A stretch of 64,000 bases of DNA from Antedon mediterranea. Lineage: Eukaryota; Echinodermata; Crinoidea; Comatulida; Antedonidae. Shown here piece after piece: positions 39,501 to 63,300 of this stretch. Below the pieces are notes generated by a model. The model saw only the letters and a list, made by a program, of their open reading frames with translations, did not search any database and was not told the DNA's origin. Location of the stretch: assembly GCF_964355755.1 (NCBI RefSeq), contig NC_092680.1, forward strand, positions 12,811,001 through 12,875,000, in the 5' to 3' direction. Each line of letters begins with the position of its first letter. The first letter of the stretch is position 1. Made by a program: the position numbers and the translations under genes.

Positions 39501-42500
39501 ACTTAGTTTAGTAGGATTTTAAGAATAGTATTTCAAGTATCCTGTTGTTTAATCTTCTTTTATGACTTTAAAAATTCTATATAATTACTACTGTAGTTTT
39601 ATCACATAATAAATGGAGCTGTACCTTGGTGGTTAAACATGCTTGCCTTCCAATCCGATGGTTCAGTGTTCAATTCTTACCTAGTGCCAAGGTTATATTT
39701 AATAATATGAAATTATTTAATTTTATAGTTAGTAAGTGTATCCTTGTTTCATTTTATTTCATTGTAATTGTTTTATTATCTGTTTTGATAGTAATTAAGG
39801 TCTTTTTACATTTATGTTTGTTGGTGTTTTCCTTTAAACACGGTCTTACTGAAAAACAACTTTCAGTTGAGTTAAGTATCCGTGATTAAATAAAGCTTAT
39901 TATTATTATATTAACTCGCGACTCTTTGAACTTCACTCCCTAAGCCTTAAATGAGACTTACTTTTAATAAGCATGATCAATTATAAAATAGTTTATCCAT
40001 CCTTTAATTGGATATTGCTGTAAAGCTGATCAATGTTACTAACATTGTATTGCTTCAAAGATATTAACATCATTTTTTGTTGTAGTTTTTGTTCATTTGA
40101 AGGGTTTGCAAGGTTTATGCTTAGCCTTCTTAATATTTGACTTATCTACCAAATGAAATGTACTGTGCTTAATGCAGTATTTTAGTTTTCTTATTGTTTA
40201 TTTTGTAGAAATACCAGAAAATTTGGAAGAACTAAATGCAAACCAAGATCCAGAGGCGGTGTTAGCGACGATATCCCACGCTGATGGCAGGGAACCTGTA
40301 CATATAAGGTAAGCAGTGATAACCCATGCTGATGGCAGGGAAACTGTACATATAAGGTAAGCAATGATATCCCACGCTGATGGCAGGGAACCTGTACATA
40401 TATGGTAAGCAATGATATCCTACGCTGATGGCAGGGAACCTGTACATATAAGGTAAGCAGTGATAACCCATGCTGATGGCAGGGAAACTGTACATATAAG
40501 GTAAGCAATGATATCCCACGCTGATGGCAGGGAACCTGTACATATATGGTAAGCAATGATATCCTACGCTGATGGTAGGGAACCTGTACATATAAGGTAA
40601 GCAATGATAACCCATGCTGAGGGTAGGGAACCTGTACATATAAGGTAAGCAATGATATCCTACGCTGATGGTAGGGAACCTGTACATATAAGGTAAGCAA
40701 TGATATCCTACGCTGATGGTAGGGAACCTGTACATATAAGGTAAGCAATGATATCCTACGCTGATGGCAGGGAACCTGTACATATAAGGTAAGCAGTGAT
40801 AACCCACGCTGATGGTAGGGAACCTGTACATATAAGGTAAGCAGTGATAACCCATGCTGATGGCAGAGAACCTGTACATATAAGGTAAGCAATGATATCC
40901 CACGCTGATGGCAGGGAACCTGTACATATAAGGTGAGCAATGATATCCTACGCTGATGGTAGGGAACCTGTACATATAAGGTAAGCAATGATATCCTACG
41001 CTGATGGTAGGGAACCTGTACATATAAGGTAAGCAATGATATCCTACGCTGATGGTAGGGAACCTGTACATATAAGGTAAGCAATGATAACCCATGCTGA
41101 GGGTAGGGAACCTGTACATATAAGGTAAGCAATGATAACCCATGCTGAGGGTAGGGAACCTGTACATATAAGGTAAGCAATGATATCCCACGCTGATGGT
41201 AGGGAACCTGTACATATAAGGTAAGCAATGATATCCTACGCTGAGGGTAGGGAACCTGTACATATAAGGTAAGCAATGATAACCCATGCTGAGGGTAGGC
41301 AACCTGTACATATAAGGTAAGCAATGATAACCCATGCTGAGGGTAGGGAACCTGTACATATAAGGTAAGCAATGATATCCCACGCTGATGGTAGGGAACC
41401 TGTACATATAAGGTAAGCAATGATAACCCATGCTGAGGGTAGGGAACCTGTACATATAAGGTAAGCAATGATAACCCATGCTGAGGGTAGGGAACCTGTA
41501 CATATAAGGTAAGCAATGATATCCCACGCTGAGGGTAGGGAACCTGTACATATAAGGTAAGCAATGATAACCCATGCTGATGGTAGGGAACCTGTACATA
41601 TAAGGTAAGCAATGATATCCCACGCTGATGGCAGGCAACCTGTACATATAAGGTACTACAGTACATTTATTTAACTTGTTTATTTTTAAAGCCCCATTTT
41701 TATTTCAAAGTGAACTGTACTTTATCTTGAAAATTAGAATATTTCAAAAGTAATAAAACATGAGCAACAGTTGAAAGAAATTCTAAACTTATTTTCATAA
41801 TTTTTTTATTTTACAGAATATCTAATGTTCCATCTCTAGAATTGGAAAAGTTTCTTGAAGATGTCAAGTGAGTGTGTGTTTTTCTTTTTGACATGATAAT
41901 GTGTTAACTTATAAATAGAGACTTTTAAAGCAAAGCTTATATAACATTATTTTATGAGGTTGGTCCATCCATAAAGTTGATCATTAGGAACCCTCACAAA
42001 AATACAATATGACTATAAACATGCAACAATTAAAAATTAAAGTTATAATAAATAAATAATTAGAATTTATAAAGATTAACAAAAAGAAATAATGCACAAA
42101 ATAATTAGAATAAAAACGGTTATCAATTAAAACAATGACAAGGACAAATGTAAGGCCCTCGCTAAATCAGATTGCTTCACTGTTCTGGATTCTGCAGATT
42201 CCGCTTTCAAACTTAAGGTCAAGGAAGCCCTCCACATCACGTGGAGTAAATATTCCTTGAACAAACAAATCTATAACATAGGCGTAATGCTTGCCATATG
42301 ATTGTTTGTTGCCTAGGTTCCTTGTTGTTTTATTATGCTAATTACTCTCTTATTTACATACAACCTGTCCTATTGGTATATAAGTACTCTAGGCGTTGTT
42401 TTCTGTTCTTCTGATGATGAGAATAGTTTCTCGAAACATGTCACATTTTAAGGCAGTTTGCCTATTCATTAAATGTTTTGCTATATTATTATTAAATTGG

Positions 42501-45041: not shown

Positions 45042-45945
45042 GCATCAATGAGGCTAAAACTTTAAAATACAGTGATACTGGAACTGACGATACTGAAAAC
45101 GTTGAGCCTACCCAAACTAGGCCTGCCAAGTCCACCTCTTCATCATTTTATTCTTGAGTCGTGTCATAAGCCAGTGTCTGAGCAACATCATTATCTTCTT
45201 GAGTTGTGTCACAATCAGTGTCGGAGCAACATCATTATCTTCTTGAGTTGTGTCATAAGCCAGTGTCCTAGCAACATCATTATCTTCTCGAGTTGTGTCA
45301 CAATCCGTGTCGGAGCAACATCATTATCTTCTTGAGTTGTGTCAAAAGCCAGTGTCCTAGCAACATCATTATCTTCTCGAGTTGTGTCACAAGCCAGTGT
45401 CGGAGCAACATCATTATCTTCTCGAGTTGTGTCATAAGCCAGTGTTGGAGCAACATCATTATCTTCTCGAGTTGTGTCATAAGCCAAGGTGGGATTATCT
45501 TCTTTATCTGGTTTTTCATCAGTTTCATCCGCATACCTCTGAGTGGCTTCCGCAGCTAGGCCTTCCACTTCTCCCTCTTCATCAGTCTCTTCATCACCAT
45601 ACCTCTGAGTGGCTGCTTCAGCCGCATAAGCCTGGGTGCTGTAGCTAGGCTTGCTAAGTCCAACTCTTCATCAGTCTCTTTAACATCACCATACCTCTGA
45701 GTGGCTGCATCAGACGCATAAGCCTGGGTTGGTGCTGTAGCTAGGCCTTCCACTTCTCCCTCTTCATCAGTCTCTCACCATACCTCTGAGTGGCTGCTTC
45801 AGCTGGTACAGTAACTATGTCTTTATCTGTTTCTTTTTGAGTGGCTGCTTCAGTTATTGTGTAAAGCTACAGCAGCCACCCAGGCTTATGCGGCTGAAGC
45901 AGCCACTCAGAGGTATTGTGATGTTGAAGAGGGAGACTTGTATAA
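45042..45945. pseudogene. Rearranged partial copy of MDC1 exon 7, centre inverted
   Basis: 45042-45118 (+) matches 58785-58862 (TTTAAAATACAGTGATACTG, GAAAACGTTGAGCCTACCCA). From about 45119 to 45858 the match is on the minus strand and covers the TQ-repeat region, including peptides such as PTQAYASDAATQRYGDV and PTLAYDTTREDNDVAPT. From about 45862 to 45935 it is again on the + strand (CAGCCACCCAGGCTTATGCG). The minus-strand frames are interrupted by frameshifts and there is no start or splice context, so this is a pseudogene fragment. It shows that the TQ repeat block has been duplicated and inverted locally. Confidence 0.8.
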
Positions 45946-54323: not shown

Positions 54324-57300
54324 ATGGATTTTGACTTGACACAAGCAATTCCCCTCTCTGATGTTGAAAGCGACGGCACTGATGATCTTGAAGAAAGTAA
54401 ACATCCAGTGAGTTTTAAATAATCCCAAGCGTGTAGCCATGCCTACATGTAGCCATGCCTATGTGTAGCAATGCCTATGTGTAGCCATGTCTGTAGCCAT
54501 GCCTACGTGTAGCCATGTCTGTAGCCATGCCTACGTGTAGCCATGTCTGTATCTATGCCTATGTGTGTAGCAATGTCTGTATCTATGCCTATGTGTGTAG
54601 CAATGTCTGTATCTATGCCTATGTGTGTAGCAATGTCTGTATCTATGCCTATGTGTGTAGCAATGTCTGTATCTATGCCTATGTGTGTAGCAATGTCTGT
54701 ATCTATGCCTATGTGTGTAGCAATGTCTGTATCTATGCCTATGTGTGTAGCAATGTCTGTATCTATGCCTATGTGTGTAGCAATGTCTGTATCTATGCCT
54801 ATGTGTGTAGCAATGTCTGTATCTATGCCTATGTGTGTAGCAATGTCTGTATCTATGCCTATGTGTGTAGCAATGTCTGTATCTATGCCTATGTGTGTAG
54901 CAATGTCTGTATCTATGCCTATGTGTGTAGCAATGTCTGTATCTATGCCTATGTGTGTAGCAATGTCTGTATTAATGCCTATGTGTGTAGCAATGTCTGT
55001 ATCTATGCCTATGTGTGTAGCAATGTCTGTATCTATGCCTATGTGTGTAGCAATGTCTGTATCTATGCCTATGTGTGTAGCAATGTCTGTATCTATGCCT
55101 ATGTGTGTAACAATGTCTGTATCTATGCCTATGTGTGTAGCAATGTCTGTATCTATGCCTATGTGTGTAGCAATGTCTGTATCTATGCCTATGTGTGTAG
55201 CAATGTCTGTATCTATGCCTATGTGTGTAGCAATGTCTGTATCTATGCCTATGTGTGTAGCAATGTCTGTATCTATGCCTATGTGTGTAGCAATGTCTGT
55301 ATCTATGCCTATGTGTGTAGCAATGTCTGTATCTATGCCTATGTGTGTAGCAATGTCTGTATCTATGCCTATGTGTGTAACAATGCCTGTATCTATGCCT
55401 ATGTGTGTAGCAATGTCTGTATCTATGCCTATGTGTGTAGCAATGTCTACGTGTAGCCATGCCTACTCTACTACATTCACCATCTCACTCACACATTTTC
55501 CTTGCTGTTTGAATCCTGGCTAATTTAATTAAAGTTAATTAGTTAATTAGTATATAATACTGTACTATTAATATGTGTAATCATGAATTAACTCAGTATT
55601 GTATCACATTTAAATCTCAAGTTCTAAGTGACATTTAATACTGTACATATAAGGGACAAATTTGGTGAGTGTGTCACATAATGGTTTCCTACAGAAATTT
55701 CTTAAAAACATCTATTATGTTTCAAATTAAAATATCTCCAGTTAAAATTAAAGGATTATTTCTTGGTAATATTTTATATTAATTCAACTTCTTACTAACT
55801 CTGTTAGAGTATAGGGTCTGGACCAACAGGTGGTAAACACCTCTATAAAACGGTCCTATTCCAATTGCTGTGGCTGTTTTTGACAGTGGCTGTGTTTGTG
55901 TGGACTAGTACACTAGTAATCCAGATTCTCATGTCATTTACAATGTATCTTGTTTTGCAGGTGGCATTTATTAAGGCTGTGAAACAAAAAGGCATTCCAG
56001 AAACATCATACCCAATTTATAACGGTGTAAATTTGATTGGAAGAGGTGAGACAGCGAATGTTTGTATTCCACTCAAGGCATTGTCTAAAGAGCATGCGTG
56101 TATTGAGGCTGATGGTGACAGTTTTATTATATACGACAAAGCAAGTCGAAATAAAACAAGGAGAGGAAAGAAGTTTCTGAAACCAAACGTTGGATATGAA
56201 TTAAAAGATAAGGACCTGCTGACATTTGGAGATGTCAAGTGTGAATTCCTAATCAACCACAATAAAAAGGTATTTGACATTCAGTGACCAACTGACATAA
56301 GCCAAACACTGACCTTATAAAACAACCAGTTAGGGAGTCATGAGATATGGAAACATCTGTATTTGAACTACCTAACTACTGAAAAAAGTCTCACTGGTTT
56401 TTATAGCAGTCACTGCAATCAACAGTGTTTATCATGTTTGTCATGATTTCTGTTGCACATTTCTAATTCATGTATATTTTTCCATATGTTATATCTAAAA
56501 TTCATGTCTGTACCTGAGCTTTAATATCAACTAATTTTTTTAAGACACCTGCCCCCAGAACATATTGATTTACTTGTGTAGAATTTACTTTGATTTTATT
56601 TCTCTATAGGATGGCGCTATTGAATCGGATTCAGACTCAGAACAATCTGAATGTCTTCTTGAGAACGCTAACTTAATACTAGTGAGAAATTCTTAAATAT
56701 TACATTAAAAACAATAAATGTGTATATCTATTATAAAAAAACCCACTTTTCAAATACAGAACAACATGACCTTTAGCACAACTTGGTTTGTTTGATGCAA
56801 CTCATTTTAAATGTATATAAGGGAGAGCTTTGTCGTCAAATTTCAGCTACGACGCAATAACTGATTTGGATCTCAGTGGTTCAAGTGTTTAAAGGAGACA
56901 TTTTTATCATTACTGTGATCATTAAAGTTGCGTACAGTATTGCATAGCCGCAGTAGAATTTAAATTCCTCCAAATCAGTAAAGTATCATGTTACATTTGT
57001 TATTGTTGCATTATTTCACTAGTTAACATCAACATCACTGAATACCACCAGAAACCATCATACAAAACCACTAAGCAGCCTAAACATTGCACATTTCAAC
57101 AAAACATATTTGATTGAATCTTGACTGCTTTTAGCTGAGTAATTTTGGTAAAATTCTCAAACTCAACATTTACAAGCATGTAACTTATAATTATGAAAAT
57201 TTTAATTTTCAGAATACTGGGCAACAATCAGATGTCGATGACTCTGCCTCTAAAAAGAAAGGTTTGTACATTTATATTACCAACAAATTAGTCTCAACCC

Positions 57301-60300
57301 TAACGCTTAAAGCTCTACACTATCTAACTATGTGACAAAAAAATGTAATAAGCCCATATATGGACATGAAGATATCACTACCATATTTGGGCACATTAAA
57401 CTAGTTTGATAGTGTAGACAAAGCTAGGGTCAGTCACAATTGCAAGAGTATTTGAGTGCAAGTGTACTCAGTTTGTGGTAAAATCTACTTGACTACATTT
57501 TTTCGTCACCCTCGCTTTTTCTAAATTTACTTACAGCTACGCTCGTTGAAGCTTCTGGTTCCGATACAGACGACGAGGCAGGCATGCCCGTATTAGGTAA
57601 ACATTTAGTGTTTAATAAAGTGTAGTTTCTGTTTTGTTTTATTTGACACAACATATTATATATACATTTGTAATGATTTCAATAAGCCACAATGGCTTTA
57701 AGTCTGAACGTCCAGATAAAACAAACAATAAATATTGTGATGACTGAAATAAAAAGTATATGAATATAAGTTTATATAACATAAATTAAAGAATGTGTTA
57801 TTCTGTATCTATTTTGTGCCTAGCTTACCTGAATAAACTGACAATAGCCCTTTCTCCTCGAAGAGCGAGATATAACTCAAAAAGTAGAAATTTTCATTTG
57901 AACACCCCACTCGACAAATGGTATAGTCCAATCCATGAACTATGCCCTCATGTGGGAGCCTCCCCACAAACCACATCAATTCGAGACATGAGAGAGTAAA
58001 CATATCTTCAAGAGAGCTTGTACAGTGGTTTGCTGTTGCTTTACTTTTTCTTGGTTACTAGAGATTCATTGAACTTTGACATGGCAATAAAATGTTTATT
58101 CAGTAGTATTAAAGCTATGTTTGTGTTTAGACAGCAGCAAGTGTGTTCCTGACAGCCAGCCGATATTGAATATCAGCTCTATTCACAATTCACCATTTTG
58201 CTCATTACATTTGAGTAAAATCGATGAAACAATCAATTCAGAAGGTACAGTACGTTGATTTGAACTCATTCTGTGCAATAAATACAAGCCAAATGGAAAC
58301 TTAATTCTTCTGTGGTATGGATTAATTTGATCATCCTTAATCTAGGGTTTGTTTTATTTATATGTTTATAGATTTATAGAACAACAATCGTATTACAAAT
58401 ACTGTATATTAAGTTTCATCTTGGCAATTTTATTTAACTTTAGATTTTTTATTTAACCTTTTTATAGAGGGTGACCCTAAACAGCGTATGCTGACAATCA
58501 AGGGGCCCTCTTGAGTTATCATAACTGACTGTGTGACAGTGGCTGTGTGTATACTAGTACACCGGTGGTAACCCCCCCCCCCCCCCCCTACTCATCTCGA
58601 AAATGTACTAGTTAGGTTCTTGTACATGAGCTAGAAGTGTAGTCTGGACCTTCAGTTTATAGTCCTTATCTGAGAAGATGATGTTATGGCAGGTATTAAG
58701 GTATTAAAAGAAAATGAAATGCTTTTCTTTTCCCAGCTGATGATACAGAAACACAAATGTACGATGATCACAATAAAAATGAGGCCTGCATCAGTGAAGC
58801 TAAAACTTTAAAATACAGTGATACTGGAATTGACGATACTGAAAACGTTGAGCCTACCCAAACTTACTCAATAACTGAAGCAGCCACTCAAAAAGAAACA
58901 GATAAAGACATAGCTACTGTAGCAGATGAAGCAGCCACTCAGAGGTATGGAGATGAAGAGACTGATGAAGAGGGAGAAGTGAAAGGCCTAGCTACAGCAC
59001 TAACCCAGGCTTATGCGTCTAAAGCGGCCACTCAGAGGTATGGTGATGTTGAAGAGACTGATGAAGAGGTGGACTTGGCAGGCCTAGCTACAGCACCAAC
59101 CCAGGCTTATGTGGCTGAAGCAGCCACTCAGAGGTATGATGATGAAGAGACTGATGAAGAGGGAGAAGTGAAAGGCCTAGCTACAGCAGCCACCCAGGCT
59201 TATGCGTCTGAAGCAGCCACGCAGAGGTACGGTGATGTTGAAGAGACTGATGAAGAGGGAGACTTGGCAGGCCTAGCTACAGCAGCCACCCAGGCTTATG
59301 CAGATGAAGCAGCCACGCAAAGGTATGGTGATGTTGAAGAGGCCGATGAAGAGGAAGACGTGAAAGGCCTAGCTATAGCAGCCACCCAGGCTTATGCGGC
59401 TGAAGCAGCCACTCAGAGGTATGGTGATGTTGAAGAGACTAATGAAGAGGAAGAAGCGGAAGGCCTAACTACAGCAGCCACCCAGGCTTATGCAGATGAA
59501 GCAGCCACTCAGAGGTATGCGGATGAAACTGATGAAAAAGCAGACCGAGAAGATAATCCCACCTTGGCTAATGACACAACTCGAGAAGATAATGATGTTG
59601 CTCCAACACTGGCTTATGACACAACTCAAGAAGATAATGATGTTGCTCCGACACTGGCTTATGACACAACTCAAGAAGATAATGATGTTGCTCCGACACT
59701 GGCTTATGACACAACTCAGGAAGATAATGATGTTGCTCCGACACTGGCTTATGACACAACTCAAGAAGATAATGATGTTGCTCCGACCTTTGCTCATGAT
59801 GATGATGATGATGCTGCTGTGAGTCACGGCGATAAAATATCAAAAACACATGAAGTGGCGGAAACACAGGTTTTTGGTAAGGGTGATGAAGTGGCAGAAA
59901 CACAGGTTTTTGGTAAAGATGATGAAGTGGCTGAAACACGGGTTTTTGGTAAAGATGATGAAGTGGCTGAAACACAGGTTTTTGGTAAAGATGATGAAGT
60001 GGTGGAAACACAGGTTTTTGGTAAAGATGATAAAGTGGCAGAAACACAGGTTTTTGGTAAAGATGATGAAGTGGCGGAAACACAGGTTTTAGGTAAAGAT
60101 GATAAAGTGGCGGAAACACAGGTTTTTGGTAAAGATGATGAAGTGGCAGAAACACAGGTTTTTGGTAAAGATGAAAACACTAATAGTACAGAAGTCATTG
60201 CAACTGGTGAGACGGTATGTACTAGTTTTATGCACTAAATCATTAAGACAATACTGAAGATAGATATAGATTCTATACTAGCTCTTGTTGGTTAGGAAGT

Positions 60301-63300
60301 TAGTTTAGTTTACAGTCTCTATTTCTGTTAACATACACAGTTAATAATTAAGTTAATTATAGTTGTTGTTACTGTCAACTTTACCAATTATTTAATTAAC
60401 AGCAAGTTCCAGACAGCCAAGACACTATGGAAGCAGAGATAGAATCTCTACTTTTTAAAGTTCCTGGTAAATCAGCACTAGCAAGTCCACACAAGAAAGA
60501 CCATCAAAGAAGGACTGTAGAATTTGCTGTAAGCCGGCTTATTGTTTCAATTACTATCTATTTTAAGAATATTTTATGAGATTGTTCCATCTATCCAAAG
60601 CTGATCATTAGGGTCCCTCAGAACATACTATTCATATTTATCAATATTAAATTTACATATAATAGAAATCCTTGAAAAGGATTTAAAATTTATTTGGCCA
60701 TCTGAGAGATGGGAGAGATATTTGAAGAGTATGTCGGACATCTAAAGGAAGAAAATTATAGAAAGATGGAGTCAAAGAGTGGAGTTAAAAAGTAGGTCAA
60801 TATCTTATTATTATGATTTTTCATTGCTTGTTTGCTTTATTTTCCAGGTTCCTCCAAAGTCCTCTGTCAGTAGAAAATCCAAAAGAAAAGTACAGATTGA
60901 AGAGGAGGATTGTGGAACAACAGAAAACAAACAAATAACGGTACTTTTTTCCCTCTTCACTTGTTTTGAATGTTAGTGAATACAAAATAAAAAATCATGA
61001 ATAATACCACCAAACTTGCGAGTTAGGATGACTATAACGAGGCATTTAATAAAAAGGCAAATTGCCTTAAAATGTAAATGTGACATTCTCATCATCAGAA
61101 CAGTAAACAACGCCTAGAGTGCTTATATACCAATAGGACATATTGTATGAGGCAATTTGCCTTTTTATTAAATGCCTCGTTATAGTTATCCTAAAATAAA
61201 AAATATTTCAATATTTTGTGTATATGATGTTTTCATTTATCTTCTTCAGGTTCCAGCAAAGTCCTCAGCCAGGAGTAAAAAACAAAAAGTTCCACAGATT
61301 GCAGAAGAACAGAGGGAAACACCAGAAAACGAACAAGTAATGATACTTACTTTGTTTGTTTAACTTAAACATGTTACTTTGTGTTCAAGACTCAACATGT
61401 TATTCTGAATAATGGTAATTCATGTGTATTTTTTATATTTTCCAGGTTCCTCCAAGGTCCTCTGCTAGGAAATCCAAAAGAAAAGTTCCACAAATTGCAG
61501 AAGAACAAAGTGAAACACCAGAAAACAAACAAGTAATGACAATTCCTCCAAGGTCCTCTGCCAGGAAGTCAAAACGAAAAGCACAGATTGAAGAAGAAGA
61601 AGATGAAAAAGAAGAAGAAAGGGAAACAACAGAAAACAAACCAGTAAGGATCTTTACTTTGTTTGGTTAACTTAAACATGATACTTTGTGTTCAAGACTC
61701 AACATCTTATTCTGAATAATGGTAATTCATGTGTTTTTTAAATATTTTCCAGGTTCCTCCAAGGTCCTCCGCCTGGAAGTCAAAACGAAAAGCACAGATT
61801 GAAGAAGAAGAAGATGAGAAAGAAGAAGATAAAAAAGTAGAAGAAGAAGAACAAAGTGAAACAACAGAAAACAATCAAGTAATGATACTTACTTTGTTTG
61901 TTTAACTTTAACATGATTCTTTGTGTTCAAGACTCAACATCTTATTCTTAATAATGGTATTTCATGTATTTTTTTTTTATATTTTCCAGGTTCCTCCAAG
62001 GTCCTCTGCCAGGAAATCCAAAAGAAAATTTCCACAGTTTGCAGAAGAACAAAGTGAAACACTAGAAAACAAACAAGTAATGATACTTTATATTTTTAAC
62101 TTAAACATGATACTTTGTGTTCAAGACTCGACATCTTATTCTGAATAATGGTATTTCATGTGTTTTTTTTAAATATTTTCCAGGTTCCTCCAAGGTCTTC
62201 TGCCAGGAAGTCAAAACGCAAAGCACAGATTGAAGAAGAAGAAGAAAGTGAAACACCAGAAAACAAACAAGTAATGATATTTACTTTGTTTGTTTAACTT
62301 AAATAAACATGATACTTTTTGTGTTCAAGACTCAACATCTTATTCTGAATAATGGTATTTCATGTTTTTTTTTTATATATTTTTTAGGTTCCTCCAAGGT
62401 CTTCTGCCAGGAAGTCAAAACGAAAAGCACAGATTGAAGAAGAAGAAGAAAGTGAAACACCAGAAAAAAAACAAATAACGGTATTTACTTTTTTGTATAT
62501 ATAGAGTTTTGTATACAAAGTTTGGAAAACAATTTTTTCCAGCTTTGATGTACAGTTTATTGAAAATGACCAAGAGAAGGTTGAATCTAAATTATCATAC
62601 TTTTTTTTATTAATGATGACATGTTCATATTTTTTTAATTTTTGATAATACAGGTTTCTTTTTTTATATTTCAAAGACCCCAAAGAAATCTAGAAGTACA
62701 GTACCTGATGAGATGCCCTACACTCCATCATTACGCCGCAACAGAACCAGCGTTTGTCCACCAAAGATCATGTTTACGGGTGTGGTTGATGAGGCCTGGG
62801 AAAAAGTAAATTGCTATTCATTTCTTAGTTTGCTTTTTCAGCTTTGTTGGTTTTACTGAATAAGAAACACTGTACATGTATAGAGTAATCTACATTTGTA
62901 CTTCATCTATACTATACTTACTACTTACTTTATTGCCGGTCCGCCAGATAGTCTGATGACTTTCCCACCTTGGCTGCTTTGCTTATATCTCGGATTGCTT
63001 TTCTCCAGTCCTGTCTGTTTTCTGCTATTCTCTGAATCGTTTCTATACTATAATGCCCAGTTATGAAAAAATAGTAACTATGCATATATTGTTCTATTGT
63101 AACCTGCTTTATTTTAGTTATTTGTTTATTTATACCAACATTTTAAAATGAGTATGACATTTGTTTTTTAGATTGTAAAGGATGTAGGCGGTGTTAGTGC
63201 CACCTCAATTGAAGACTGTACGCACCTAATAACAGACAAGGTAATTTAAAAAAATATAAACATGCATTTCTAATGAATTAAAACATTATAAAAATAGATT

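Follow-up and report, generated by a model that had tools for sequence, protein, structure and literature searches.

The window, a stretch of 64,000 nt, carries on its plus strand a kinase-like gene, which we take to be NRBP, kinship included; its exons, placed by eye, span approximately 14747–44107. The product of these exons contains a kinase domain (Pkinase, E 5e-30 in Pfam, with junction codons set by eye) and its best solved chains are WNK3 and WNK1; some 5′ exons may be missing from the by-eye model. The feature described here starts at the end of a 100-nt coding exon (40209–40308; provisionally exon 9), which is preceded by a T-rich tract and TAG and ends in AAG, in phase 2. The next coding exon (41817–41867; ISNVPSLELEKFLEDVK), placed by eye, is followed by the donor CAA|GTGAGT. 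Joined from 40308 to 41817, the two exons read ...ISHADGREPVHIRISNVPSLELEKFLEDVK, and this junction presumably needs no gap against human NRBP1. A genome search with both exons gives one match, the first exon at this locus. Two segments separate the exons: 28 tandem 48-nt copies of the exon end (40309–41652), each opening with a splice donor, and a unique 164-nt intron (41653–41816), which ends in TTTACAG and is likely the intron as it was before the expansion.

TRF reports a period of 48, 28.9 copies, 94% matches and 0% indels at 40270–41655; with the left flank included and the units cut at the donor boundary, the count comes to exactly 29 whole 48-nt units, of which unit 0 is exonic (the last 48 nt of the exon, 40261–40308) and 28 are intronic. 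Junctions recur at an exact 48-nt spacing (40309 + 48k, k = 0 to 28), the last at 41653; they are preceded by AAG in 27 cases and by ATG in two (40405 and 40549), and the donors that follow are GTAAGC in 27, GTGAGC in one (40933), and GTACTA in one (41653). The original prediction of 29 donors in a row is thus right, provided that the divergent GTACTA is counted. Identity reaches 0.94 at a shift of 48 vs 0.38 at the best of the other shifts from 10 to 149, multiples of 48 left aside, which excludes chance as the source of the periodicity. The array starts at the exon’s own donor and has a donor in each unit, and, as in human CBS, the exon end lies inside the unit (48-nt units aligned to 40261–40308); we refer to it as an exon-end multi-donor minisatellite. 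When two array units are searched against the genome, 14 of 14 among the matches listed fall inside this array, both counts being lower bounds.

Could the array be false, or its copy number wrong, as a result of sequencing or assembly? A single assembly stands behind it, but 11 positions vary across the 28 intronic units, unique sequence flanks the array at both ends, and the locus lies within one long contig of a 354-Mb genome assembled in 18 contigs; an artefact is very improbable. Units 4, 5 and 6 repeat units 1, 2 and 3 with 0, 0 and 1 differences, a 144-nt triplet that shows recent growth. In the 39 nt that follow the donor part, identity to the exon is 38/39 for the last unit and 39/39 for unit 13; unit 1, the first intronic one, is not exon-like, so the array follows no simple order of old ends and young middle. 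On the minus strand, open frames of 491 and 480 codons span the donor array (40191–41704), owing to the lack of stops in those frames of the 48-nt unit.

Other repeats are found further along the window. A 30-bp array at 54464–55448 (33 copies, 98% matches) is open in two plus-strand frames of 332 and 319 codons. Downstream plus-strand open frames at 57482–60235, presumably MDC1-like, contain SDTDDE and many TQxY/TQVF repeats, which form tandem arrays of 96, 45 and 36 bp; by eye, arrays at 45141–45803 resemble the reverse complement of the 58.9–59.8 kb repeats, an inverted partial copy between the two genes. At 61447–62496, each unit of a tandem array with a period of mostly ~200 bp seemingly contains an entire small exon along with its acceptor and donor (VPPRSSARKSKRK...).

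What would the NRBP message gain from a later donor? Read-through beyond the first donor adds one R and then a stop, TAA at 40310–40312. The stop is supplied by the donor’s own GTAA because the exon ends in phase 2, and it is kept for every later donor because 48 is a multiple of three; as originally predicted, only the first donor keeps the frame. The gene has later introns (exon ends by eye), and TAA-bearing mRNAs made from later donors would be expected to decay.

Many of these sites can be bound by U1, but the 100-nt exon would be expected to be defined together with the first donor, the earliest to be made. With a U1 5′ end taken from recall, predicted pairing is −9.5 or −9.6 kcal/mol at 26 sites, −8.0 at the two ATG sites, and −5.6 at the last. 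Early transcription and the shortness of the exon that it closes (100 nt) would favor the first donor; use of a later one would be rare and would each time give a TAA-bearing mRNA. A leak to donors 2–4 is plausible because the resulting exons of 148–244 nt are still definable. The earlier claim that the spliceosome must choose the first donor is best read as a fair expectation, to which gap-free first-donor junctions in two sister arrays, DHX8 and TDP2 (see below), add weight. Folding offers no help: in predicted folds the first donor is among the least accessible (0.007 vs up to 0.18), and there is thus no structural reason for it to win. A role of RNA structure in hiding the later donors was considered and rejected, since the 40209–40600 region folds no better than shuffled sequence (z 0.96; 83 of the 100 shuffles are as good or better).

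The same donors could make the array a dosage device: donors 2 to 28 would often be used, their TAA-bearing mRNAs would be degraded, and copy number would set the level of the kinase-like protein. Consistent with such a device, 25 of the 27 internal alternatives match the first donor in predicted U1 pairing (the other two, at −8.0 kcal/mol, fall slightly short) and every one of them would yield a stop. Two human cases are consistent with it too: two downstream repeat units serve as donors in IFI6, and ABCA7 expression drops with array length (PMC5954066), as far as the available parts of these accounts go. The latter source also states, however, that retention of one ABCA7 unit, apparently ~2%, is the same irrespective of length (PMC5954066); the donor positions of the NRBP array do not stand out as constant (variation is as low or lower in 15 of 48 nine-position stretches), with no sign of selection on its internal donors; and, by genome-wide place counts (below), donor words are not consistently in excess in arrays. 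On balance, a dosage role is unlikely.

How did an exon end come to be repeated within its own intron? We think it probable that this exon-end donor minisatellite arose by tandem duplication across the exon–intron boundary and that the first donor is the one mainly used, leaving the rest as near-neutral ballast. In the simplest history, the ancestral intron would begin GTACTACAG; the left break would fall in the exon (~40261–40264) and the right break no more than 3 nt into the intron (GTA|CTACAG). The duplicated donor would then lie directly after an intact exon, leaving the mRNA unchanged, with the new copy landing in the intron. Joining the intronic GTA to the exonic AGCGAC would create GTAAGC at once, upgrading the weak GTACTA donor. 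The left flank GTTAGCGAC matches the unit (GTAAGCAAT) at 6/9 positions, beyond the TRF edge, a level reached by 1.3% of window 9-mers outside the array, or by 0.2% if AGC has to be exact; no such resemblance to the unit is seen in the right flank (1/6). AGCGAC differs from AGCAAT at two positions, both CpG-type transitions. The last junction (GTACTA, 41653–41658), weak in its predicted U1 duplex (−5.6 vs −9.5 kcal/mol for most internal donors), is probably the original start of the intron, and the sequence points to GTACTA as the ancestral donor; GTACT is plausible as a donor here because GTACTC opens a further intron of this gene (exon ends by eye). A possible alternative is that the donor was GTAAGC from the outset, in which case the right end must have lost sequence in a later deletion. 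Expansion would have followed by unequal exchange or slippage, with the 144-nt triplet a recent step, and the intronic copies would be ballast with a possible leak. Most likely, the array is close to neutral and has no dedicated regulatory role.

A Rogers-type origin would instead have the intron itself created by tandem duplication of an AGGT-bearing exon piece, with units excisable from GT to AG. Nearly every unit does run GT...AG, and in fission yeast, introns span exonic 24-bp AGGT copies in genes that contain several of them, according to the part of the source available (PMC4974935). What follows the array, however, is an unrelated intron stretch of 164 nt that has a T-rich acceptor of its own, and the 21 nt before a unit’s own AG include just 8 pyrimidines, which together make intron creation quite improbable. 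Recursive splice sites were also considered and discarded, with no pyrimidine-rich tract before AG|GT.

Other arrays were sought by pattern searches for three spaced donors; where a search returned more, the first places were taken, so that the set is a sample and not a census. The 5′ flanks of 20 distinct listed arrays and of NRBP were read by eye, unblinded. In 12 of these 21 arrays, an open, exon-like stretch runs up to the array and ends where it starts: NRBP, L006, L007, L009, L010, L020, L021, L023, L024, L026, L027 and L028. Homology reaches up to the first donor in six arrays besides NRBP, all with the same anatomy: TDP2 (L009, E 1e-10), DHX8 (L007, E 1e-20), an axonemal dynein heavy chain (L020, E 1e-15, where the top row is labeled malate dehydrogenase and most others dynein heavy chain), importin-9 (IPO9; L028, E 3e-9), an ABCC8/9-like transporter (L026, E 5e-10), and a nucleotide-sugar transporter (L006, E 2e-22). 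The other five exon-end arrays have no match in Pfam, the one database searched for them. By eye, no exon was found at the array start in L008, L011, L016, L019, L022 and L025; the flank obtained for L017 and L018, which belong to one repeat family, is still inside the repeat and leaves the array start outside the view. In L005, a 24-bp donor-word array lies within the intron, ~60 nt past an exon-like stretch that has no Pfam match.

Judged by spacing rather than counted one by one, donors number ~4 in the ABCC array (where the units are irregular), 10 in L006, ~74 in importin-9, and ~80 in dynein. The first-donor exon of DHX8 and its next exon align to a solved relative with no gap at the junction (103 of 103 residues), and the first-donor junction of TDP2 is likewise gap-free against a solved relative, the one gap of that alignment lying elsewhere. 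Read-through meets a stop in 11 of the 12 exon-end arrays, NRBP included. The importin-9 array differs: its unit is 15 nt, in phase 0, and read-through stays open over the 50 codons examined, adding VSYIE or VSYIK repeats, so that use of a later donor would alter protein length. This importin-9-like exon and its 15-nt donor array (~74 units by spacing) lie at G000:C9:1176302-1177397 (L028, L053). Two sister arrays also hold words that may be traces of their birth: TGCAAATA is common to the DHX8 exon and to the intron past the last donor, and TATT is similarly shared in IPO9, where it is short enough for chance. Shared words of this kind make birth from short homology likely for exon-end arrays. 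We tentatively propose, at somewhat less than even confidence, a recurrent class of arrays in conserved genes, among them a splicing helicase and a dynein heavy chain, which would be born by short-homology duplication across exon ends and survive through commitment to the first transcribed donor despite the presence of ~4 to ~80 equal ones.

Do minisatellites favor donors? Places were counted on both strands for three spaced donor words vs the same word reversed; such counts are dominated by a few long arrays and are not counts of arrays. AGGTAAG is found at 873 places vs 944 reversed for periods of 17–47 and at 1608 vs 2399 for periods of 48–78, and CAGGTAAG at 187 vs 243 for GAATGGAC. The opposite direction is seen with CAGGTAAGT (40 places vs 12 reversed) and AGGTAAGC (241 vs 5). 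Single AGGTAAG words number 37,712 in the genome vs 46,103 reversed. With both directions seen, genome-wide place counts give no consistent support for a preference of minisatellites for donors.

An automatic exon test, which asks for a pyrimidine tract, YAG, and an open frame of 45–250 nt up to the donor, is passed by 9 of the 21 donor arrays, NRBP among those tested, and by 5 of the 20 single AGGTAAG sites. None of the 4 arrays built on a non-splice word passes, although two of these have only ~145–155 nt of flank. The test is insensitive, missing TDP2, dynein and ABCC; the single sites are 20 of the first 22 listed on the plus strand of one contig, two close neighbors being left out. The rates for donor arrays and single sites are not clearly different. 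When five by-eye peptides from the 20 single sites were compared to Pfam, two matched, both to UTP6_C and one of them below the curated cut-off. Chance seeding of minisatellites over donors, combined with harmless use of the first donor, is enough to account for what is seen, and the results suggest that exon-end donor arrays are tolerated in this genome.

Why should such arrays matter? Work on how the spliceosome selects one of several equivalent neighboring donors usually relies on constructs with two or three sites. The NRBP intron is a natural case with 28 near-identical donors, and similar arrays are carried by at least six further conserved genes of the same genome. The length of the mRNA tells which donor was used: if our reading is correct, donor k adds k − 1 units, and each array is a natural competition assay for 5′ splice site choice. 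The NRBP array also illustrates how a minisatellite can begin at an exon end without a change in the protein. Among the papers listed by literature searches on such arrays, no report of a genome-wide class, of short-homology birth or of donor upgrade was found, which is not proof of absence.

The closest known systems are human. The IFI6 (6-16, G1P3) minisatellite reportedly sits at an exon end. As related in the available part of a later account, two of its downstream units serve as donors and three mRNA species result (Turri et al., 1995, via PMC4526556). Repeat units thus supply splice donors in both IFI6 and NRBP; unlike in IFI6, where downstream units are used, the later NRBP donors add a stop, and the NRBP array is known from DNA alone. 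The CBS 31-bp VNTR, c.1444_1467+7, is present in 16–21 copies and has been typed in people (PMC2630376, in part); its name implies a unit made up of 24 exonic and 7 intronic nt, which repeats the donor, as in NRBP. In contrast to NRBP, copy-number typing exists for CBS, as does a reported link to reduced enzyme activity (Lievers et al., 2001).

The ABCA7 intron 18 VNTR, in the sections available, has a 25-bp unit described as intronic and ranges from ~12 to ~427 units between people; longer arrays go with lower expression and more exon 19 skipping, with the one-unit retention unchanged (PMC5954066). Like the NRBP array, it starts at the exon’s own donor, its unit begins with GT, and a premature stop follows, in ABCA7 from one-unit retention; the NRBP unit, by contrast, is 48 bp long and copies the exon end, and length variation is known for ABCA7. 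For the earlier suggestion that copy number could tune NRBP expression, ABCA7 offers mixed support. By analogy, IFI6 and ABCA7 make copy-number effects possible but speak against simple donor competition as their cause. Intron gain by tandem duplication (Rogers, 1989; ATP2A1 and potato RdRp, in the part available of PMC4974935) shares with the NRBP array a duplication that touches splice signals and leaves the peptide unchanged, but in NRBP the donor side of a probably pre-existing intron is multiplied and no new intron is claimed. The kind of array is therefore already known, from human IFI6, CBS and ABCA7; the NRBP array is a new case, and the recurrence of such arrays in one genome appears to be new.
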